This document shows positions 4,668-18,280 of a stretch of DNA of 37,886 bases, piece by piece. The position numbers and the translations under genes were made by a program. This DNA comes from Candidatus Bathyarchaeum sp. (GTDB lineage Archaea > Thermoproteota > Bathyarchaeia > Bathyarchaeales > Bathyarchaeaceae), in contig JAFGGM010000062.1 of NCBI GenBank assembly GCA_016930555.1, positions 1 through 37,886 of the forward strand. Reading direction: 5' to 3'. Positions within the stretch are counted from its first letter, which is position 1, and every line of letters starts with the position of its first letter. The notes under the pieces were generated by a model that was given only the letters and a program-made list of their open reading frames with translations, was not told where the DNA came from and did not search any database.

Positions 4668-4695
4668 TCTAACTGATATAAACTTTTCAGTTAGA
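4668..4695. promoter_or_regulatory. Perfect inverted repeat enclosing a TATA-like element upstream of the PolD DP1 gene
   Basis: TCTAACTGA-TATAAACTTT-TCAGTTAGA: 9-bp arms, 10-nt spacer containing TATAAA. Confidence 0.6.
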
Positions 4696-6338
4696 TGGAA
4701 AAGCCCTTTTTTGTTGAAGGAGAGAAGAGAGTTAATAGGATACTGGACACACATATTACCGTCTCAACAGAAAGGAAACAAAAGGAGGCTAAGAGGGTGA
4801 GTGAAGGCACAAGTCTGCAGAAAGCTGTTTCCTTCACATTAGCGTCAGGATATCAGTTAGATAAGGAGGCCTTCGATTTCTTGAACAACATAGCCGAAAT
4901 AGAAGATCCTCTCTTTTTAATTGAAGAAGCGGTTAAGAAAATTGGGGATTTACCTCAAAAACCCCTCTTTATTGACCGAGTCTTTCTAGAGACTATGAGA
5001 AAAGGACCTTGCGCTGAAGAAAAGTTGCCTTCTCCTGTTCCGTCTCCATCCACTACTGAATCAAGGAAAACCTTCAGACCTTACGCTAAAGATGTTGAAG
5101 ATCAAGTAAAAGTGATTACAGACCCAACAAAAAAAATCTGCACAACAGGAACCATCACAGAATATTTGGGATATTTTCAGGATCGGTTTGAAAGGCTGAA
5201 GAAGATACTTCAAAAGAGAATAGATGCCAAAAATGCAGTACCCATATCTGTTGCATTAAAGGCTCCGCTAAAATCGAAGCTTAACGTTATAGGCATGGTT
5301 ATGGAAAAAGTAGAATCCAAAGGAAAGCTCTTCGTGAGAATTGAGGATTTAGAAACAAGCGCCACCGTATTCATATCCTCAAATTTGAGCCGTGAGATTA
5401 TAGCAAAAGCCCGTTCTCTACTTCTGGATCAGGTCGTTTGCATAAGTGTCGTAAAAGGAAAGAGTGATCTGCTTATCGCTAAAGATTTTATCTTGCCAGA
5501 GGTACCCCAGAAGACCCTCCACAAAGCGTCAGAGCCAGTCTACGCAGCCCTTACTTCAGATATTCATGTAGGAAGCAAAAAATTTATGGAAAAAGAGTTC
5601 AGTCGATTTCTAGAATGCCTTAAGGGAAATCGGGGAAATGATAAGTTAAGAGAGTTTGTGGGGCACATAAAATATTTGGTTATTGCAGGTGACATTGTAG
5701 ATGGTGTGGGAATCTATCCAGACCAGATAGAGGAATTGGCGATATCGGATATTTTTGAGCAGTATAGGGAAGCCGCAAAGCTCATCGCGCAGGTCCCTGA
5801 CTACATAGAAGTTATTATTATACCGGGTAACCATGACGCAACCAGAAAGGCGTTACCACAACCTGCCCTACTTAAAGACTACGCAGAACCGTTATGCGAA
5901 GCACGAAAAATACACTCTCTAGGAAACCCCTCCACAGTTAGCCTCCACGGCGTAGATTTACTTCTATTTCACGGACGAAGCTTAGACGACATCGCAGCGG
6001 TTGCCCCCAACGTCAGCTTCGACACCCCGGAAAAATCCATGAAACTCTTGTTACAAAATAGGCACCTTGCACCTATCTACGGAGAAAGAACCCCTATCGC
6101 TCCTGAAAAACGAGACTTCATGGTTATCGAAAAAATTCCTGACATTTTTCATGCTGGCCACGTACATGTGCTCAAATGCAACCAATACAGAGGAACGCTC
6201 ATAGTTAACTCTGGGGCATGGCAAAAGCAGACAGACTTCCAACAGAAGATGGGACTTGTTCCCACACCAGGAATCATACCCATAGTGAACCTCCAGACAT
6301 CAAAGATTTCAACACTAGATTTCACAGAAGCGTGGTAA
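4695..6338 (+). CDS. polB: DNA polymerase D (PolII) small subunit DP1, exonuclease/phosphoesterase subunit; GTG at 4797 is the more likely start
   Basis: OB region plus calcineurin-like motifs SDIHVGS, VIAGDIVDGVGIYPDQ, IIPGNHDA, FHGRSLDDI, GHVH. AAAGGAGG 9 nt upstream of the in-frame GTG at 4797. Confidence 0.93.
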   Translation: MEKPFFVEGEKRVNRILDTHITVSTERKQKEAKRVSEGTSLQKAVSFTLASGYQLDKEAFDFLNNIAEIEDPLFLIEEAVKKIGDLPQKPLFIDRVFLETMRKGPCAEEKLPSPVPSPSTTESRKTFRPYAKDVEDQVKVITDPTKKICTTGTITEYLGYFQDRFERLKKILQKRIDAKNAVPISVALKAPLKSKLNVIGMVMEKVESKGKLFVRIEDLETSATVFISSNLSREIIAKARSLLLDQVVCISVVKGKSDLLIAKDFILPEVPQKTLHKASEPVYAALTSDIHVGSKKFMEKEFSRFLECLKGNRGNDKLREFVGHIKYLVIAGDIVDGVGIYPDQIEELAISDIFEQYREAAKLIAQVPDYIEVIIIPGNHDATRKALPQPALLKDYAEPLCEARKIHSLGNPSTVSLHGVDLLLFHGRSLDDIAAVAPNVSFDTPEKSMKLLLQNRHLAPIYGERTPIAPEKRDFMVIEKIPDIFHAGHVHVLKCNQYRGTLIVNSGAWQKQTDFQQKMGLVPTPGIIPIVNLQTSKISTLDFTEAW

Positions 6339-6380: not shown

Positions 6381-7541
6381 TTAAGGTCCTGTTAAGCAGG
6401 TAGGAACATAACCCACTAGGTCTCGAAGTCTATCACTGTTACTGAATACCATTCTAACAAGGCTGCGGCCTATCCCCAAACGAATTTTTTTAGTGCGGCC
6501 GTACCGTCCCATACTTACAACCCGGGCATTCAATAGCCCCACCATATCTAACTCGCTGATTAAGCCACTTACTCGCCTCTGAGTCAGTGGCGAGAGACCT
6601 GACTGTTCACATAGTTCACAATATATTCCGTAAATGTCGCCCGTGATGCTGTAGCTAACTTTTGTCTTACCCAAGAGGTAAACACTACACAAAACCAGCT
6701 TGGAGTGGACAGGAAGATTCTCCAAAACCTCAACAATCCTGTCATGTTCTACGCGTTTCTCTGCTTGCCTCACATGCTCTTCGCTGACACAATCCGCTCC
6801 TTCTCGCTCTGCTAACTCGCCTGCAACACGAAGAAGGTCTAAGGCCCGTCTAGCATCACCATGCTCTGCAGCAGCCAATGCAGCACACAAGGCTACAGCG
6901 CTATCCTGGAGAGCATTTTCAGAAAAGGCCACTTGGGCGCGTTTCCAGAGGATTTCTTGAAGTTCAGCTGCATCATAGGGCCGAAAAACGATTTCTTCTT
7001 CACTTAAGGAGCTGAGAACGCGTGGGTCCAAAAATTCCTTGAATCTGAGGTCGTTCGAGATTCCTATTATTGAAGTTCTGCCGTGACGAAGAGTCTCATT
7101 CACTCTAGTTAATTCATATAGTAGCGTGTCACCGCGAGCTTTTATTAGGGCGTCGATTTCGTCAAGAACAACAATAAAAATTTTCTTTTGAGCATCTAAT
7201 CCTTGCTTGAATCTGTCAAAGACTTCTCCGACAGCCAAACCCGTGAAAGGAACCCTCACATCTAATGCTTCACACAAGCTTGAAAGAACACGATATTCCG
7301 TGCCAGCTAGACGACAGTTCACATAGCAGATTCCAACAGATGAACCTAGTTCCCGTGATTTGGACGTAAGCATATTTAGTACATATTTGGTGACGGCGGT
7401 TTTTCCTGTGCCGGTTTTGCCATAAATAAAGGCGTTTGAACAAGGAGACCCCCTCAGAACAGGGGCTACTATGCCACCTAAACAGTTGATTTGTTCATCG
7501 CGGTGGGGCAGTTTTTTTGGAATATAATCATGGCGCATCAC
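6381..7541 (-). CDS. cdc6: Orc1/Cdc6 replication initiator; homologous coding sequence continues upstream to about 7616
   Basis: Walker A YGKTGTGKTAVTKY, Walker B VVLDEIDAL, sensor ISNDLRFKEFLDPRV, C-terminal wHTH. Upstream in-frame codons read LNKISTLEDVFNRFLSSNHIFENRE, typical of Orc1 N-termini. Confidence 0.94.
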   Translation of the reverse strand: MMRHDYIPKKLPHRDEQINCLGGIVAPVLRGSPCSNAFIYGKTGTGKTAVTKYVLNMLTSKSRELGSSVGICYVNCRLAGTEYRVLSSLCEALDVRVPFTGLAVGEVFDRFKQGLDAQKKIFIVVLDEIDALIKARGDTLLYELTRVNETLRHGRTSIIGISNDLRFKEFLDPRVLSSLSEEEIVFRPYDAAELQEILWKRAQVAFSENALQDSAVALCAALAAAEHGDARRALDLLRVAGELAEREGADCVSEEHVRQAEKRVEHDRIVEVLENLPVHSKLVLCSVYLLGKTKVSYSITGDIYGIYCELCEQSGLSPLTQRRVSGLISELDMVGLLNARVVSMGRYGRTKKIRLGIGRSLVRMVFSNSDRLRDLVGYVPTCLTGP

Positions 7542-7795
7542 TTCACGGTTTTCGAAAATGTGATTACTGCTAAGAAAACGATTGAAAACGTCCTCAAGAG
7601 TGCTAATTTTGTTCAGTGCTATATTCTCCTCTAAGAGAGGTGGAGTTATTGCCTCGATTGCATTCCCAGCAGATAAGAACTCTCATAAAAAAAACTAGAC
7701 AATTTGCACAAAAAAGCTAAAGGGAAACAAAATTTTCTTGATAAAATCTGTTTGAGGTTAGTTATCATCTTTGAAGTTTGTAAGTGCACCCCCTC

Positions 7796-7817
7796 ACCCC
7801 TTTGTTTCGTGTGGAAA
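7796..7817 (-). promoter_or_regulatory. ORB-like element 1
   Basis: Reverse complement TTTCCACACGAAACAAAGGGGT; compare archaeal ORB CTTCCAGTGGAAACGAAGGGGT (consensus from memory). Confidence 0.65.
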
Positions 7818-8002
7818 AAGGAATCCATTTTATCTTTCTTTGTAGAAAAGAATCCATTTTCGCGGACATTATTATAGTTGAAAAAAATCCCGTTGGAATT
7901 ACTGCGATTTTCAATATTTAATTGCTTTCATCAAAAAAACTAGATCTAAATCTACAATTTTTTGCTATTGAGGCTCGAAAAGAACTCTAGCAGAACTTTG
8001 TG

Positions 8003-8024
8003 CATCCAATGGAAATTGAGGGGT
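8003..8024 (+). promoter_or_regulatory. ORB-like element 2
   Basis: CATCCAATGGAAATTGAGGGGT, 17/22 to the remembered ORB consensus. Confidence 0.65.
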
Positions 8025-8212
8025 CGGTGCCTCCAAAAATCACTTCTTTAGATTATGCTAACATTTATGCGACGAAGAGTCTACCCTATTTATTGGTAGC
8101 TTGGTTGTTAACTCGAATGTAAAACATTGTGAAACCAAATGGTTTATTCTTAGTTTTTGGTGCTAAAATTTGGAAATAAGCGTGATTAGGGCATTTTACG
8201 TGTATAGACGGA

Positions 8213-8234
8213 ACCCCTTGGCTTCTAATGGAAG
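8213..8234 (-). promoter_or_regulatory. ORB-like element 3
   Basis: Reverse complement CTTCCATTAGAAGCCAAGGGGT, 18/22 to the remembered ORB consensus. Confidence 0.68.
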
Positions 8235-8432
8235 ACCGTCTTCGACAATTCCTCTTTTCTGTTTTCACAAATGGGGGATTTAGTGAAGGCTGTGAACCTA
8301 AATATTTGCAAAAACAACCTTTTTTGCTTTTTAAACTGTTTTTTGGGTTTATTTTTTAGACAGTCTTTACCACAACCTCTATAACTTGTGAAGTCGTAAA
8401 TAGTGAAGAAACAGTTCAACTGGTGCTGTGTT

Positions 8433-8843
8433 ATGCCTACCAAAAAAATTCGCGTAGAGGTCTTCAACAATGGGGACCGTTACACGATAACTTTTGAGGG
8501 TCAAGTTACGCGAGATAAGACTCTTCGTCTACTTGATTTGGTTGAACTTTTGGGAGGAGCACCAGCTACTAACTCTTTATCTGAAAGGTCTGCAGCTGAG
8601 ATGCCAAAGATCGAAAAAGTTCGGTTAGTTGCGGAAAAAAATTTTCCTGTAGGATGGTTTTCTTCAAAGGACCTTCAGGCGGCGTATGAGAAGCAGTTTA
8701 ATGAGCCGATTCGTTTGAGTACAGCTTCAACATATCTTTCTCGTTTGGCAGATCGTGGCTTTTTTATTAGAAGTGGGGCTTCAAACCAGAGGCGATATAG
8801 AATTATGACTGCAATATCAAAGCATCAGCTTCATGAAAGATAA
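8433..8843 (+). CDS. winged helix-turn-helix DNA-binding protein (unknown function)
   Basis: ATG at 8433; C-terminal wHTH-like FSSKDLQAAYEKQFNEPIRLSTASTYLSRLADRGFFIRSGASNQRRYRI; lies between oriC and nurA. Confidence 0.7.
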   Translation: MPTKKIRVEVFNNGDRYTITFEGQVTRDKTLRLLDLVELLGGAPATNSLSERSAAEMPKIEKVRLVAEKNFPVGWFSSKDLQAAYEKQFNEPIRLSTASTYLSRLADRGFFIRSGASNQRRYRIMTAISKHQLHER

Positions 8844-9940: not shown

Positions 9941-11489
9941 GTTTGAGCCTGTTGGTTTTGTTCGCGACGTTAAAGGGGACACAGTCTCCTTTTTCCTGAA
10001 TCAGGGCGTAACCCTTTCTTTCGGTCAAATTGTTCGAATAGACTCTGAAACCCGAAGCTTCTATGCCCGTGTTGTGGATGCTGGGAGTTCCTCTACGCTG
10101 AATACTAATGAGCAGCTTCGTGAAGCAGAAGGAAAAGAATCCTTTGGACCTTACTCCAGCTTCAGACACGTTGACGCAATTCTCTTCCTTGAAAGACATG
10201 GCGAAAATATTCGTTCTCCAACCTTCAATCCAAACTATATGGATCGAGTATATGCAACATGTGAAGACGATCACTCTGTTTTGCGGCTTTCGGGCGATTT
10301 AGAGATAGGTCGCCTGCGTTCAGGAGAAGAAGTTCTGGGCGACGTGGGCATCAGTGTCAAGGCCATTCCTAAGATGATGGGCATGTTCGGAATGACTGGA
10401 TCGGGAAAAACCAACACCGAACTTATCTTAAATGCCCGCATTATTGACAACCCTGAAACGGTTGGGCTCATCTTCGATTTTGCCGGTCAACTGCTTTCGG
10501 GCAAAGATATTGGGGCTGATAGTGGTCTACGGAATCATCCTCTTTTTCACACCAAAGTTCGCTATTACTCGACACGAGACGGCAAGCTGTGTATAGGCTT
10601 GCATACCCTTACTCCTGGGCGATTGTGGACAATTTTTCCTGACATTGGGAAGCCTCAGGTCAGGCTTGCCCGGCGACTGTATGAACAGCTGGGCAGGTGT
10701 TGGATTGAGCAATCGCTGGAGATATACCGTATTGAAGGTCATGCTGGGGTCGGGCGAATTATTGGTCCCCAGAATAAGAATGCGGTTAGCGCTTTGATGA
10801 GCAGGCTTTCTGACCTTCCGCCTCATCTTTATCCCCCATCCAACTACAATTTTATTGACGACGTGGTCCAAAACGTAAGTCAGGGAATCACGTGCCTCAT
10901 TGACATTTCAGGCTTGACTTCTGAAGAGCAACAGAACGTCACCTGTCTCACTGCCAGCAATGTTGCTTACCATTATAAGCAGTTGTGGGAACGCAATTTT
11001 GACGCGTGGGTAAAGCTTCCAACACTGTTGATTACTCTTGAAGAGGCTCATGAATTTCTTGACCCTGAAATACACAAAACAATCTTCTCCGACATTGCCC
11101 TCACGTATAGGAAGTATCGTGTGGGATTAAATGCTGTAACGCCTAGGCCTTCTAAGATTAATCGTGATGTCTTTGCTGAGCTTTGGACCAAAGTTATCAT
11201 GAAAACTGAGTTGAAGCGGGATAGAGATTATCTGACCCAGAATACGCCATATATGGAATATAGTGACACCGAAATTAAGATGCTTGACATCGGAGAAGCA
11301 CTGCTAATTTCAGAGCCTCAAATTCGGTTTGCCGTTCCACTGAAGGTTATTCACTATCCTGACTATCTGAAGACACGTGGAAAAACTGATTACGATCTGC
11401 CCCCATCAAAAGCCCTCTCTGAAATGGATGAACGTCTGAAACGGCTCAAAGCTGCCGGAGAATCTCTTACCACTGGAGACAAAATCTAG
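9915..11489 (+). CDS. herA: HerA-like DNA translocase/helicase ATPase
   Basis: N-terminal barrel region (FEPVGFVRDVKGDTVSFFLN), Walker A GMFGMTGSGKTNTELI, Walker B TLLITLEEAHEFLDP; starts inside the nurA 3' end. Confidence 0.9.
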   Translation: MKAVKVLSKFEPVGFVRDVKGDTVSFFLNQGVTLSFGQIVRIDSETRSFYARVVDAGSSSTLNTNEQLREAEGKESFGPYSSFRHVDAILFLERHGENIRSPTFNPNYMDRVYATCEDDHSVLRLSGDLEIGRLRSGEEVLGDVGISVKAIPKMMGMFGMTGSGKTNTELILNARIIDNPETVGLIFDFAGQLLSGKDIGADSGLRNHPLFHTKVRYYSTRDGKLCIGLHTLTPGRLWTIFPDIGKPQVRLARRLYEQLGRCWIEQSLEIYRIEGHAGVGRIIGPQNKNAVSALMSRLSDLPPHLYPPSNYNFIDDVVQNVSQGITCLIDISGLTSEEQQNVTCLTASNVAYHYKQLWERNFDAWVKLPTLLITLEEAHEFLDPEIHKTIFSDIALTYRKYRVGLNAVTPRPSKINRDVFAELWTKVIMKTELKRDRDYLTQNTPYMEYSDTEIKMLDIGEALLISEPQIRFAVPLKVIHYPDYLKTRGKTDYDLPPSKALSEMDERLKRLKAAGESLTTGDKI

Positions 11490-12199
11490 GAAGCATTAGT
11501 TTCCCTTCGCTTTAGTATCTTCTGCATCTCTTCCTTTAATCGATACATGTAAGGCATCTTATGAGTGTCCCTCTCCAGATACCCGTCCTTATACAGCTTC
11601 TTCATTAACCTAGCAGTATGCTCCCTTGTGAGCCCAATCAGTTCCCTGATTTCAGGTGCCGTCTTTTCTCCCTCTTTGCCAATAGTCTCAAGAACCATCA
11701 GCTCGGTTTCAGTTAAGGGCTCCAAAGCCCTTTCCCTTTTTATAGGAATCGCCGCCTCTATCTTCACCTCAGGAACATATACCTCTTGCTTGACCTTCTC
11801 TATTTCAATAAGTTTCTGCATTACTTTATTTTGAGCTTCCTTTATGCCCTCAACTTCGCTTTTCATCGCCCTAAGTTGCCCAGAGACGCGTTCTTCAATG
11901 TGGGGAACATCTCCAACTGCTTTAGTTATCTCCGATAATCGTCCTTCATATTCTTCTATCCTGTTTGCGACTTTTATGTTCTCCACTGCTGCTGCCTCAA
12001 CCTTCTCGGCAACATAAAGAACCCTGTCTTTTTGCCTCCGAAATTGGGTGTCAATACCTACAACAATGTCCTCCACGACCCCCCTTGCCCTTTCATACTC
12101 GTAGCGGAGTACCTTCAAGCGCCTATAGTAAAGAAAAACCGCCAAAACCGTGACAGCCAACAGGACGGACGTTGCCACGAGCATTCCCTCTGAGACCAT
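11486..12199 (-). CDS. membrane-anchored coiled-coil protein with C-terminal MarR-like wHTH domain
   Basis: N-terminal TM segment (LVATSVLLAVTVLAVFLYYRR), long helical region, C-terminal LTETELMVLETIGKEGEKTAPEIRELIGLTREHTARLMKKLYKDGYLERD. Confidence 0.75.
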   Translation of the reverse strand: MVSEGMLVATSVLLAVTVLAVFLYYRRLKVLRYEYERARGVVEDIVVGIDTQFRRQKDRVLYVAEKVEAAAVENIKVANRIEEYEGRLSEITKAVGDVPHIEERVSGQLRAMKSEVEGIKEAQNKVMQKLIEIEKVKQEVYVPEVKIEAAIPIKRERALEPLTETELMVLETIGKEGEKTAPEIRELIGLTREHTARLMKKLYKDGYLERDTHKMPYMYRLKEEMQKILKRRETNAS

Positions 12200-12220: not shown

Positions 12221-12332
12221 TGTGATTTCAGCGTGATGTCGTGTGATATTCATATGGTATCACATATCACACTAGTATATAAGTAGACTTAAGTTTTTTG
12301 TAGCCTTGAGCCTCGTGACATCACATATCACA
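12221..12332. promoter_or_regulatory. Cluster of TGTGAT/ATCACA half-sites upstream of the membrane wHTH gene
   Basis: TGTGATA-N9-TATCACA at 12242-12264; exact 13-mer ATCACATATCACA at 12259-12271 and again at 12320-12332; TATA-like TATATA nearby. Confidence 0.7.
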
Positions 12333-12586
12333 TTTGCTATTCGCCCTTTTCTCACGGCACTCTTAGTGTTGGCCGCTATTTTATTTCTCTCAGTTCTTCC
12401 AATCTGTTAGCCGGCTCTTTGACTTACTGGTAAAAAACCGCCGTTTTCATGAAAAAGGCTCAAAACAGGCTTATTTTTTGCATGGAGATCCCTTCTGTTT
12501 TTTACGCCTTGCAATTTCTCCAAAATATTTGGATTTGCACTATTAGTGATATCTGTTTGTTGTAAAAGCATATGTGATTTGTGATG

Positions 12587-13057
12587 TCACAGCCTTTTTG
12601 ACATGTTTCGAGGTTTGGTGAGCTCTTCGAGACTGTTTTTTAGCTCTTCGTGGAGTAGTGCTATGCTTCTTATGTGTTCTTCTTTTGGTCTCTTTTTTGC
12701 AAGTTTTCTTTGGCTGTTTATGTATGTTTGGAGCTTGTTTGCGACCTCTATGTATGGTTCTAGGCTTGTACCTTCGAGAATTCCCATGTATCCTAACAGC
12801 AGGATTGTGTAAATTGATCGTATAACATTCTGTCTGGCCTGCCTTAAACTTCTATTAAAAGCGCCTCGAGTTACGGCTAAAATCCTTATATTGGCTTTTT
12901 CGTCGTATTTTAGCGGTTTATCGGATATATTTTCTGCTAAAACGTCTATTAAAAGTGTTTCTAGCTGTATTTTTGTTAAATTACTGTTTTTTGAAAGTAT
13001 TTTAACCATTGGGTCTGCTAGCGAGTAGTTTAGCCAATTTTGAGCCTTTTCCTTCAA
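12587..13057 (-). CDS. conserved-looking hypothetical protein, helical
   Basis: 156-aa ORF with normal composition, TTG start preceded by GAGGA; no family recognised. Confidence 0.6.
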   Translation of the reverse strand: MKEKAQNWLNYSLADPMVKILSKNSNLTKIQLETLLIDVLAENISDKPLKYDEKANIRILAVTRGAFNRSLRQARQNVIRSIYTILLLGYMGILEGTSLEPYIEVANKLQTYINSQRKLAKKRPKEEHIRSIALLHEELKNSLEELTKPRNMSKRL

Positions 13058-13457
13058 TTAAAATTCCTCATCCACAAACTCCCTCGTAAAGGATACATTT
13101 TTGTATACGTGACACCTCAACACAAAAACTTTTCCCTAATTGACGAAAAAACTACACATGTCATTACCTTCCATATCTGAAGAAATTACTAGAAAAGCGC
13201 TAAAATATATCGTTAAATTAAATGAAATTATTAAAAAAACGAATATTTAAGCCAACACGAAAAACACGCCTTTTCTCACGTCTTCTCTCTATATTCTTGG
13301 TTCCCAACGAAAATTATCATTTTTTATTCAACTTCATTCGGTGTGTGCGTAAATGTTGCTTTTCTCTCCCTTGTAACTGCCATTTTACTCCCTCTACTCA
13401 GCAACTTTCCAACGCTCTTCTTTCCTCGGCTATGGGTTATATCTCATTTTGTGACCT

Positions 13458-13642
13458 TGTGATATATGATGTGTGTGATTATTATCACACCTGCATCACG
13501 TGTGATTATCACAGAATCACGTGCGACGTCACGCTCCAGCCCCCATTTCTTTTATGGCTTTTTTGAGCTTTTTTCCTGTTTTTATTCCCCTTTTCAGGCG
13601 TTTTCTTGACATCACTGTTTTGTGATATTCTTTTGTTGTGAT
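13458..13642. promoter_or_regulatory. Second cluster of TGTGAT/ATCACA palindromes upstream of the Elf1-like gene
   Basis: GTGTGAT-TATT-ATCACAC (13473-13490); TGTGAT-T-ATCACA (13501-13513); further TGTGAT at 13458, 13621, 13637. Confidence 0.65.
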
Positions 13643-14860: not shown

Positions 14861-17800
14861 GTGACTATCCCGATGAGCGACGAGTATCGGCAATATGCTG
14901 CTTCTTTGGAGAAAGAACTTGAGGACATATACTCTGTCGTCACAGAAGCCAGAAAAAAAGGGTTAGACCCTACTCTTGCTCCAGAACCTGAGGTAGCAAA
15001 AGATTTGGCTGCCTTAGTGGAAGGTCTTGTTGGTCCCTCTGGCGTCGCTGAGAGCATACGGGATTTAGCTGAGAAAATGTCTCGAGAAGAACTCACCTTC
15101 AGAATAACTGAACAGATAATAAACGGCGATTTCGGTGCCATGGAAGCCCGAGAAGCTGCTGAGCAGGCAATGAGAACTGCCCTCGCTATATTGACTGAAG
15201 GAATAACTGCGGCTCCTATACAAGGCATAGCAAAAGTGGAAATCAAAACTAACCCTGACAAAACAAAATATTTGGCAATCTATTATGCTGGTCCAATACG
15301 TTCAGCTGGTGGCACAGAACAAGCTTTAACAATCATAGTCGGCGACCACATTCGGCGCCTACTCAAGCTGGACCGCTACAAGCCAACAGACGAGGAAGTC
15401 GCTCGGTTCATAGAAGAAGTACGCCTATTTGAACGCTCAATTGCCCGATTTCAGTACCACATCTCAGATGAAGAATTACGAAGAGGCATACAAAACATAC
15501 CCGTGGAGGTAACAGGCACCGAATCAGACCCCGTTGAAGTTTCCACCTTCAGAAACCTCCCCCGAATAGAAACAAACAATGTTCGAGGCGGAGCTCTCCG
15601 AGTAGTAAACGACGGAATAGTGGGACGGGCAGCCAAAGTGCTGACAACTATCGAAAAACTTCACTTTGATGGCTGGGAATGGCTTGGAGGACTGAAAGAG
15701 TTTTCTAAGAAAAAGAAGGCGGGATTCATGGCGGACGTCATAGCAGGGCGTCCAATTTTCTCGTTTCCGTCTAGAACAGGGGGGTTCAGGCTTCGCTACG
15801 GAAGATCCCGTAACACTGGTCTCGCAGCGGTTGGCATCCACCCCGCCACCATGATGGTTGTCCAAAATTTTCTTGCCGCTGGGACCCAGCTTCGTTTAGA
15901 GGGTCCTGGAAAAGGCGGAATTGTGGTTCCTGTGGATAGTATTGAACCTCCTGTTGTAAGATTAAAGAATGGCTCTGTTGTGCGCGTTACTCTCAAGAAT
16001 TTTAAACCTTTAGAGAAGTCGATTGATAAGATTCTGTTTCTCGGGGACATCCTCATTGGATTCGGCGACTTTCTATACACCAACAAGCCTCTTCGTCCGT
16101 CAGGCTACAATGAAGAGTGGTGGCAAGAAGAACTTACGGCAGCTCTTGACAAGAAGTTTGGTGCCGACTTGAAGGCTGCTGCTGGAGCTATAGGCGTTTC
16201 TGTTTCAGTTCTTGAAGAATGGTTGGCTGCTCCTTACAAGAATAAGCCCAACGCCGAAGAAGCCATTGTGATCTCCTCGGTTTTGGGGGTTCCTCTTCAT
16301 CCCTTATTCACCTTTTTCTGGGAAAACATCAACGTTGAAGAGTTTGGAGCCTTAAGAAGTTGGGGGATCGCTTCTGAAATAAAAAAAGAGAATGATACAG
16401 TTCACGAGATTGTTGGCATCAAAGACAAAAGAGAAAAAGGCATTCTCGAGAAGCTTTGCATCCCCCACGAAGTCATCGCAAACAAAATAAAAATGGTTAA
16501 TGATGAGGCGCACATCCTTGCTTTCTGCCTTGGACTAAACGACCCTGACCGCCACGTAGACTCTTCGGAAAGCGTTTTCGAGACTATACAGGCCTTCACA
16601 GGCATTAAAGTTAGGGAGAAGGCTCCTAGTTTTGTAGGCGCAAGAATGGGACGCCCAGAGAAGGCTAAACAGAGGGAAATGAAGCCCCTTGTTCACGCTC
16701 TGTTTCCTGTTGGGCTTGCTGGCGGTTCCCGACGTAACCTTTCTGAAGCTGCAACTAAAGCTTCGATTGAGGTTGATCTTGCTGTGCGTCGCTGTCTAGG
16801 CTGTAATGAAACAACTTTTTTGGTCAAATGCCTAAAATGTGGTTCGGAAACTGTCTTAGAGAAGATTTGTCCTCAATGTGGAAGAAGCTTTAAAGATGAT
16901 GATTGTCCTGTCTGCAAGGTTTCAACCAGAAGTTACGCCAAACAGCAAATCAACATACGGGCTTTGATGCTTTCAGCCTGCAGGAAACTTGGTCTTCCTA
17001 TGTTAAGTCTGGTTAAGGGCGTGAAGGGCATGACAAACCAAACAAAGACGCCAGAGATTCTAGAAAAGGGGATTCTGCGAGCTAGACATGGTTTGTCTGT
17101 CTTCAAGGATGGGACAATACGTTTCGATGTCACAAATGCTCCTCTCAGCCATTTCACTCCCAAGGAGGTCGGCGTCTCTGTTGAGCAACTCAAAAAGAAT
17201 GGGTACCTCCATGATCAGGACGGTAAACACTTAACAGCCCCTGAGCAGATTTGTGAACTTAAGCTTCAGGACGTAGTTGTTCCCCGGAAATGCGCAGACT
17301 ATTTCGTTCATGTTGCCCACTTCCTTGACGAACTCCTCGAGAAAGTATACGAGCTTCCTCCCTACTACAACATCAACAAAGCTTCTGACCTCCTTGGCCG
17401 TCTCATCATAGGTTTGGCACCACACACCTCAGTCGGTATAGTCGGAAGAATCATCGGTTTCACTCCCCTGAATGTCTGTTACGCTCATCCCTTATGGCAT
17501 TCAGCGAAGCGGAGAGACTGTGACGGCGACGAAGATGCTTTGATGTTGGCTTTGGATACCATCCTGAACTTCTCCAAAATCTTTCTGCCCTCCCATATTG
17601 GAGGAATAATGGATGCTCCTATCCTGATTATTCCTGTGGTGAATCCAGTGGAGGTGCAGCGGCAGGCTCATGAAGTGGATGTTGCGGGACAGTATCCTGC
17701 CCTGTTTTATGAAAAAACTTGGGAGAAGGCAGAAACTAGACAGTTAATCAAGTCAATAGATATTGTTGAGCATCGTTTGAATACTGCAGCTCAGTTTGAG

Positions 17801-18280
17801 GGCTACAAGTACACTGTTCCTGTTTCAGACGTTAACATGGGCAACTCTGAAAGTGTATACAAAAAATTGGGAAAGATGACAGACAAACTCCACAGCCAAC
17901 TCATTTTGGCGGAGAAGATTGAAGCCGTCGACGCTGACGTAGTGGCTAAGAAGGTTTTGACCACACATTTTGTTCGGGACATAGCTGGCAATCTGAGAGC
18001 CTTCACAACTCAAAAGTTTCGTTGCAAAGCCTGTAACAAAAAGTTCAGGAGGTTGCCCCTTCTGGGAAAGTGCTCAGCATGTGGAGGCGAATTAACTCTT
18101 ACCGTCTATCGTGGGGGTATCGAGAAGTATTTGCCTGAAGCCCAGAAGCTTGTCAAGAAGTATGGTCTCTCGGAATATTATGCTCAAAGGCTTTCGATGG
18201 TGGCAGATGAAATCTTAATCTTGTTTGAGGGCAAGAAACCTCGGCAGATATGTCTCACAGCCTTTTCAAGTGAGCCTTAG
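14861..18280 (+). CDS. polC: DNA polymerase D (PolII) large subunit DP2
   Basis: YYAGPIRSAGGTEQA, NNVRGGALRVVNDG, CxxC zinc motifs, HPLWHSAKRRDCDGDEDALMLALD catalytic segment; AAGGAG upstream of GTG 14861; no intein interruption. Confidence 0.95.
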   Translation: MTIPMSDEYRQYAASLEKELEDIYSVVTEARKKGLDPTLAPEPEVAKDLAALVEGLVGPSGVAESIRDLAEKMSREELTFRITEQIINGDFGAMEAREAAEQAMRTALAILTEGITAAPIQGIAKVEIKTNPDKTKYLAIYYAGPIRSAGGTEQALTIIVGDHIRRLLKLDRYKPTDEEVARFIEEVRLFERSIARFQYHISDEELRRGIQNIPVEVTGTESDPVEVSTFRNLPRIETNNVRGGALRVVNDGIVGRAAKVLTTIEKLHFDGWEWLGGLKEFSKKKKAGFMADVIAGRPIFSFPSRTGGFRLRYGRSRNTGLAAVGIHPATMMVVQNFLAAGTQLRLEGPGKGGIVVPVDSIEPPVVRLKNGSVVRVTLKNFKPLEKSIDKILFLGDILIGFGDFLYTNKPLRPSGYNEEWWQEELTAALDKKFGADLKAAAGAIGVSVSVLEEWLAAPYKNKPNAEEAIVISSVLGVPLHPLFTFFWENINVEEFGALRSWGIASEIKKENDTVHEIVGIKDKREKGILEKLCIPHEVIANKIKMVNDEAHILAFCLGLNDPDRHVDSSESVFETIQAFTGIKVREKAPSFVGARMGRPEKAKQREMKPLVHALFPVGLAGGSRRNLSEAATKASIEVDLAVRRCLGCNETTFLVKCLKCGSETVLEKICPQCGRSFKDDDCPVCKVSTRSYAKQQINIRALMLSACRKLGLPMLSLVKGVKGMTNQTKTPEILEKGILRARHGLSVFKDGTIRFDVTNAPLSHFTPKEVGVSVEQLKKNGYLHDQDGKHLTAPEQICELKLQDVVVPRKCADYFVHVAHFLDELLEKVYELPPYYNINKASDLLGRLIIGLAPHTSVGIVGRIIGFTPLNVCYAHPLWHSAKRRDCDGDEDALMLALDTILNFSKIFLPSHIGGIMDAPILIIPVVNPVEVQRQAHEVDVAGQYPALFYEKTWEKAETRQLIKSIDIVEHRLNTAAQFEGYKYTVPVSDVNMGNSESVYKKLGKMTDKLHSQLILAEKIEAVDADVVAKKVLTTHFVRDIAGNLRAFTTQKFRCKACNKKFRRLPLLGKCSACGGELTLTVYRGGIEKYLPEAQKLVKKYGLSEYYAQRLSMVADEILILFEGKKPRQICLTAFSSEP

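Follow-up and report, generated by a model that had tools for sequence, protein, structure and literature searches.

What are 15 copies of one short half-site doing among the replication genes of an archaeal chromosome, and which protein reads them? An initial annotation took them for operators in three spacers around a winged-helix gene and an orphan gene. The window, by which we mean the whole 37,886-nucleotide stretch analysed, comes from a Bathyarchaeia MAG, the PolD large subunit of which is 70% identical to the nearest named record (BA2). The hexamer field spans 12221-13642, and its setting is as follows:

4695-6338: PolD small subunit
6381..7541, minus strand: Orc1/Cdc6 initiator (Pfam Cdc6_C, 7e-28)
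7542..8402, no strand: probable oriC, the 860-bp spacer upstream of orc1/cdc6
7795-7817, 8005-8024 and 8212-8235: three canonical ORB-type boxes, conserved in the family
8403-8843: HTH8403, a small wHTH protein
Between HTH8403 and mwHTH: NurA, then HerA
11486..12199, minus strand: mwHTH, with a predicted N-terminal TM helix, a coiled coil, a linker and a C-terminal MarR-fold winged helix
12587..13057, minus strand: orphan, a 156-aa helical protein with no Pfam family
Between the orphan and the PolD large subunit: a zinc-ribbon protein, then GGGPS
14861-18280: PolD large subunit

A dense hexamer field that occurs once per genome

All 15 TGTGAT/ATCACA hexamers reported for the field were recovered exactly (12221, 12242, 12259, 12266, 12320, 12327, 12573, 12580, 13458, 13474, 13484, 13501, 13508, 13621 and 13637), against about 0.7 expected, the rest of the window containing 0.70 per 1,422 bases. 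When the region was resampled 2,000 times under a first-order Markov model, hexamer counts averaged 0.88 and reached 6 at most, which was also the count in the densest 1,422-base stretch of 60 resampled windows. Among all 6-mers of the window, ATCACA/TGTGAT shows the strongest local clustering; only a poly-A 6-mer rivals it in number per stretch, and none matches its enrichment over its own frequency. The genome-wide scan suggested earlier found the paired form, TGTGAT-N(0-14)-ATCACA, at three places in the genome itself (an assembly of 1.14 Mb, 84% complete), all of them inside the field, and in a sample of about 780 kb taken from two relatives no 1.45-kb stretch outside the field had more than 5 hexamers, so that a comparable density was encountered neither in the scan of the genome nor in the relatives' sequence. 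The homologous field of G212 has 10 hexamers. There is one array per genome, and a regulon signal is absent. A control pattern, the motif read backwards, matched 6 times in G117 versus 0-1 times in the other genomes.

The hexamers are absent from the bodies of the 12587-13057 ORF and of the wHTH gene, and the site at 12580-12591 overlaps the stop codon of the former. Degenerate half-sites (CGTGAT, TGTGAC and GTCACA) also sit at conserved positions, so the field comprises more than 15 half-sites. The spacing is variable, as first described: TGTGAT and ATCACA are separated by 1, 4 or 11 bases, and there are direct repeats in addition. The short direct and inverted repeats are clustered in AT-rich spacers. 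Rfam and tRNA scans of the field gave no matches.

Conserved blocks of the array

In an alignment of 19 family members, blocks A-C stand out as conserved, with unconserved sequence between them; the elements of the field are:

12221..12271, no strand: block A, TGTGATTTCAGCGTGATGTCGTGTGATATTCATATGGTATCACATATCACA, five half-sites whose order and approximate spacing are conserved in the family
12314..12332, no strand: block B, CGTGACATCACATATCACA
12573..12591, no strand: block C, TGTGATTTGTGATGTCACA, block B mirrored, overlapping the orphan stop codon
13091..13108, no strand: a separate dyad, GGATACATTTTTGTATAC, about 35 bp upstream of the orphan start, its motif unlike the array
13450..13533, no strand: block D, TGTGACC..TGTGAT..TGTGAT..ATCACA..ATCACGTGTGATTATCACA..ATCACG..GTCACG, upstream of the orphan
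13607..13642, no strand: block E, TGACATCAC and two TGTGAT half-sites, after block D

The possibility that the sites would lack conservation in relatives is therefore not borne out by the alignment. Block B and block C form an inverted pair; the GTGACATCAC part of block B is kept in nearly all family members, and the palindrome of block C at the orphan 3' end (TGTGAyrTCACA) is also present in other families, reaching another class as TGTGATATCACA (genome L202). Block E was found in members of the genus at variable spacing. The core of the half-site is GTGA/TCAC, usually within TGTGAT; in family f24 the outer bases have drifted to CGTGAC/GTCACG and the GTGA core is retained. The separate dyad is conserved in every aligned family member and is probably the promoter or operator of the orphan gene.

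Selection on sites inside coding genes

The description of the sites as lying in spacers is correct for the window, but relatives carry them inside aminotransferase, hypF, mwHTH and orphan genes, with synonymous codons fixed. The equivalent of block D lies within an intact aminotransferase coding sequence in L055, L060, L071, L077 and other loci, and in the genus of the window the gene is missing at this place and the sites are retained. Block D appears to be a retained piece of an aminotransferase gene otherwise lost here, 12 codons of which still read ITPASRVIITES. Across 14 genomes, synonymous conservation of the aminotransferase gene was 0.90 in residues 157-167 versus 0.57 overall, and the codons most conserved synonymously were those that build the half-sites. 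Ser165 is encoded by TCA in 13 of 13 cases, and site codons were identical to the reference in 84% of relatives versus 45% for other codons (p 5e-5).

A similar pattern was observed in family f17, whose left field lies inside hypF; the distance between the f17 sites and the start of mwHTH is about 1.5-2.5 kb. Synonymous conservation along hypF is highest in windows that coincide with the sites, and codons at the sites agree with the reference in 83% of relatives, as opposed to 38% elsewhere in the gene (p 5e-9); at two f17 loci (L136 and L142) hypF was not seen and the array is retained. Most of the array of ammonia oxidisers falls within the mwHTH gene itself, where it exceeds the synonymous-shuffle expectation in most genomes (p <=0.005 for five of the eight genomes from f29 and for both from f58), the excess inside the orphan gene being less clear by the same shuffle. 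Since the site codons are frozen and the array survives the loss of the gene around it, the array is selected as DNA inside coding genes, which speaks against a mere promoter and in favour of a DNA docking array.

The array accompanies mwHTH across genomes

Where mwHTH is present (62 loci in 61 genomes), the surroundings of the orphan gene contain 10.7 hexamers on average, as opposed to 0-3, about the number expected by chance, in the 15 genomes without a detected mwHTH (families f10, f18, f19, f22, f23 and f27); this coupling is one by count, in which related genomes are not independent. The genomes without mwHTH retain the orphan, and most of their fully read loci retain orc1, HTH8403 and a PolD subunit. 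There are two exceptions, namely G180, with 8 hexamers and no mwHTH detected in an assembly that is 86% complete, and family f24, in which the hexamer count fails because the motif there is the CGTGAC/GTCACG variant. In G273, mwHTH is present along with 8 hexamers. We left out matches in f55, f56 and f59 (L225-L227), which resemble other wHTH paralogues.

The persistence of Orc1, HTH8403 and the orphan in genomes that have no array argues against each of them as a dedicated binder. Both the neighbouring wHTH protein and the orphan product had been put forward initially for binding assays. The former is probably the binder of the array, considering its phyletic coupling and its CRP-type recognition helix (see below). 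The latter is disfavoured as a dedicated binder because it is retained where both mwHTH and the array are missing. The orphan is a near-universal single-copy gene in the class (113 of 120 near-complete class genomes, mwHTH being found in 103 of the same 120) with weak homologues across the phylum, and it is a core archaeal gene that is flanked by the array yet not dependent on it. Its profile searches of PDB and NCBIfam returned nothing useful, and its AF2 model is poor (pLDDT 54).

Predicted fold and recognition helix of mwHTH

The AF2 model of mwHTH (pLDDT 79) consists of a single helix (residues 4-137), a disordered linker and a wHTH domain, with a TM-like stretch at about 5-24 followed by the coiled coil and a recognition helix that begins at R192:

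mwHTH residues 192-204: recognition helix, REHTARLMKKLYK

A TM-like segment was predicted in 58 of 63 mwHTH homologues and is absent in all five f24 proteins; the protein is thus predicted to sit in the membrane. In f24 homologues (L197, L199, L201, L203 and L209), the missing TM segment coincides with the array drifted to CGTGAC/GTCACG, and these proteins may represent a soluble or differently anchored version of mwHTH. Searches did not find mwHTH in viral contigs or plasmids.

By Pfam, mwHTH is a MarR/TrmB-type wHTH protein, with MarR at 33.0 bits versus a cut-off of 24.6. In a PDB fold search with the model, AspA (5k5q) was the second-best match, many MarR regulators scoring similarly. The full-length profile gave mainly coiled-coil noise against PDB sequences, and the comparison was then run on the C-terminal domain alone. 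Residues R192, E193 and R197 align on R180, E181 and R185 of CRP (hhalign E 7e-4), and the ungapped score between the two helices was reached by one of 2,000 shuffles. In CRP these three residues make the contacts to TGTGA, and TGTGAT is part of its consensus half-site; the presence of such base-reading residues at equivalent positions in mwHTH would explain the TGTGAT half-site of the array. The helix pattern REH(T/S)(A/S)R (here REHTAR) is retained in essentially all mwHTH homologues, and f24 proteins keep it alongside the GTGA core. The CRP/FNR-like appearance of the half-site, pointed out from the beginning, has thus found a counterpart in the protein. It had also been remarked that no CRP-family protein was visible, which holds formally: a Pfam scan of mwHTH yielded wHTH families alone and no cyclic-nucleotide-type sensory domain, and Crp-type models scored below their Pfam cut-offs (HTH_Crp_2, 22.1 bits versus 27; Crp, 16.7 versus 21). 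Judged by the missing nucleotide domain and these scores, mwHTH is not a member of the CRP family.

A probable oriC near the array

The initial description of the locus was incomplete in that it overlooked a probable oriC beside the field. Based on its ORB-type boxes, the 7542-8402 spacer is probably oriC; an ORB adjoins orc1 in most family members showing the pattern, and the distance from the field to oriC is 4-5.5 kb. We also considered the field as oriC itself with divergent ORBs and rejected this, since the canonical ORBs sit in the spacer upstream of orc1 (7542-8402) and the ORB consensus does not occur in 12221-13642. GC skew failed to place origins in sampled stretches of two genomes because the skew tracks the coding strand.

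The gene order orc1-ORBs-HTH8403-mwHTH-orphan-GGGPS-PolD large subunit extends from Bathyarchaeia through ammonia oxidisers: it recurs in f29 and f61 and partly in f58, which are considered ammonia oxidisers because they encode archaeal AmoA. Phylum-wide, the array is usually 1-6 kb from oriC/ORBs. The array is away from orc1 in f17 and G005 (0.3-0.5 Mb) and probably also in G030, and therefore proximity to oriC is not obligatory. On the single contig of G005 (L045), ORB and orc1 are at about 1.44 Mb and mwHTH, array and orphan at 0.41 Mb, either because array and oriC are naturally apart in this genome or because of an assembly join.

Several other observations concern the origin. HTH8403 keeps its position beside oriC from Bathyarchaeia to ammonia oxidisers and is a candidate origin-associated regulator. 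The ORBs of ammonia oxidisers match the family-conserved ORB-type boxes of 7542-8402. A second Orc1/Cdc6 paralogue is encoded at G000:C56:62042-62296.

Possible functions of the array

We consider the chances about even that the array is an origin-proximal, centromere-like membrane-docking array. In such a system, mwHTH would be anchored in the membrane through its one N-terminal helix, the long coiled coil would extend it into the cytoplasm, and the winged-helix head would bind half-sites through their GTGA core, with a recognition helix reading DNA in a CRP-like manner. Many mwHTH molecules on many half-sites could dock the locus at the membrane near oriC, and the docked locus could position or separate sister origins, autoregulation of mwHTH being a by-product. 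The locus has what may be expected of a centromere-like element, that is, one clustered array, sites tolerated in genes and a dedicated binder, presumably mwHTH. That its purpose is docking or segregation seems to us about as likely as not. That an ATPase-independent docking system, composed of a membrane coiled-coil protein with a CRP-like head and a codon-freezing array, extends from Bathyarchaeia to ammonia oxidisers is plausible if slightly doubtful. ParA was not recognised among the Pfam-scanned nearby ORFs or in the ORF list of the window. The separation of array and orc1 in f17 and G005, the f24 proteins without TM segment and the failure to identify an NTPase partner count against docking, and the ancient synteny could merely reflect a conserved cluster of replication genes.

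Another explanation is autoregulation, with mwHTH as a membrane-bound transcription factor and the sites as its many operators, through which it would repress or activate its own expression, that of the orphan and possibly that of the replication operon next to it. Membrane-tethered wHTH regulators exist, the lack of a dispersed regulon fits purely local control, and the window has sites upstream of each proposed target: blocks A-C occupy the spacer ahead of mwHTH, block D precedes the orphan gene and block E the Zn-ribbon/GGGPS/PolD operon. However, relatives have sites deep within aminotransferase or hypF coding sequences or within mwHTH and the orphan gene, the f17 sites are far from the mwHTH start, the most widely conserved element is the palindrome at the orphan 3' end, an odd place for an orphan operator, and about 15 half-sites greatly exceed what autoregulation requires, which makes this account rather unlikely. 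Alternatively, the array might titrate or tether oriC and thereby limit or time initiation (by sequestration or in a datA-like way) with no part in segregation. That ORBs lie 1-6 kb away throughout the phylum is consistent with such a role, for which the ORB cluster downstream of oriC2 in Haloarcula, a negative regulator of that origin, offers a precedent (PMC4010727). But the array does not consist of ORBs, genomes without it still encode orc1, and where orc1 is elsewhere (G005 and f17) the array stays by mwHTH and the orphan, and we consider origin control unlikely.

The binder could also be a different protein, such as an Orc1 paralogue, HTH8403 or the orphan product, whose genes lie close by or elsewhere in the genome, that of the orphan always adjoining the array. 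This is improbable given their persistence without the array; furthermore, a second Orc1 seems unnecessary, as G013, G068 and G212 keep the array with one Orc1 match only (in incomplete assemblies), and the TGTGA-type recognition helix was found in mwHTH, the sole candidate compared with CRP. Finally, short repeats clustered in AT-rich spacers might suggest a non-functional remnant of a decaying mobile element or simple repeat, but positions conserved across families, an array unique in the genome, frozen synonymous codons and sites that outlive the loss of their gene make this highly improbable.

On the membrane-docking reading, the array may fasten or mark the chromosome near its origin. SegA/SegB has been reviewed as the main proposed segregation machinery of archaea, its mechanism being unclear (PMC7617429). 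How chromosomes are positioned and separated outside Sulfolobales is largely unknown, and the locus provides a concrete candidate, consisting of one protein and one site array by the origin, for much of Thermoproteota including ammonia oxidisers. Moreover, it combines a DNA-reading code like that of CRP with a predicted membrane protein of MarR fold and illustrates a DNA signal maintained within protein-coding genes. In the openly accessible papers that we searched, we found no description of the array-mwHTH locus.

Comparison with known systems

The array shares with E. coli CRP sites the TGTGAT half-site, and mwHTH shares with CRP the R, E and R at equivalent positions of the recognition helix. 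However, mwHTH differs from CRP in having no cAMP domain, a MarR-type wHTH, a predicted membrane anchor and one locus instead of a regulon, and the fixed TGTGA-N6-TCACA spacing of CRP sites contrasts with the variable spacing of the array, in which only 13474-13489 fits CRP. Archaeal ORBs are likewise conserved repeats adjoining orc1/cdc6, but their consensus (TCCAnTGGAAA..AGGGGT in 7542-8402) is unrelated to the array, and the array is missing from some orc1-bearing lineages.

Among partition systems, AspA of the Sulfolobus plasmid pNOB8 (PDB 5k5q and 4rs8) is also an archaeal wHTH protein, and it binds plasmid centromere DNA. It works with ParB and ParA on the plasmid and has neither a TM helix nor a long coiled coil, whereas ParA/ParB were not recognised beside mwHTH; the MarR-like character of the mwHTH wHTH, with AspA one of many MarR-fold matches, counts against the docking reading. 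TubR-tubC, a plasmid partition system, places a wHTH protein on an iteron array beside its own gene, and it differs from the mwHTH array in its tubulin-like TubZ motor, its soluble TubR and its plasmid location. ParB-parS sites are origin-proximal, Noc-NBS sites are membrane-linked, and both kinds of DNA docking site are tolerated inside genes. ParB and Noc are nonetheless CTPase-fold proteins unrelated to mwHTH that read other motifs, ParB having ParA as a partner.

The SegB sites of Sulfolobales are chromosomal, palindromic, mostly intragenic and concentrated around segAB and oriC1, and the authors of that work suggest membrane tethers (PMC12284271). SegB differs in being a ribbon-helix-helix protein that acts on TCTAGASTCTAGA, with sites also scattered along the chromosome and SegA as partner ATPase, features not seen here, and its core AGA(C/G)TCT is absent between 12221 and 13642. 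By analogy, the array would work most like the AspA centromere, SegB sites, parS or tubC arrays.
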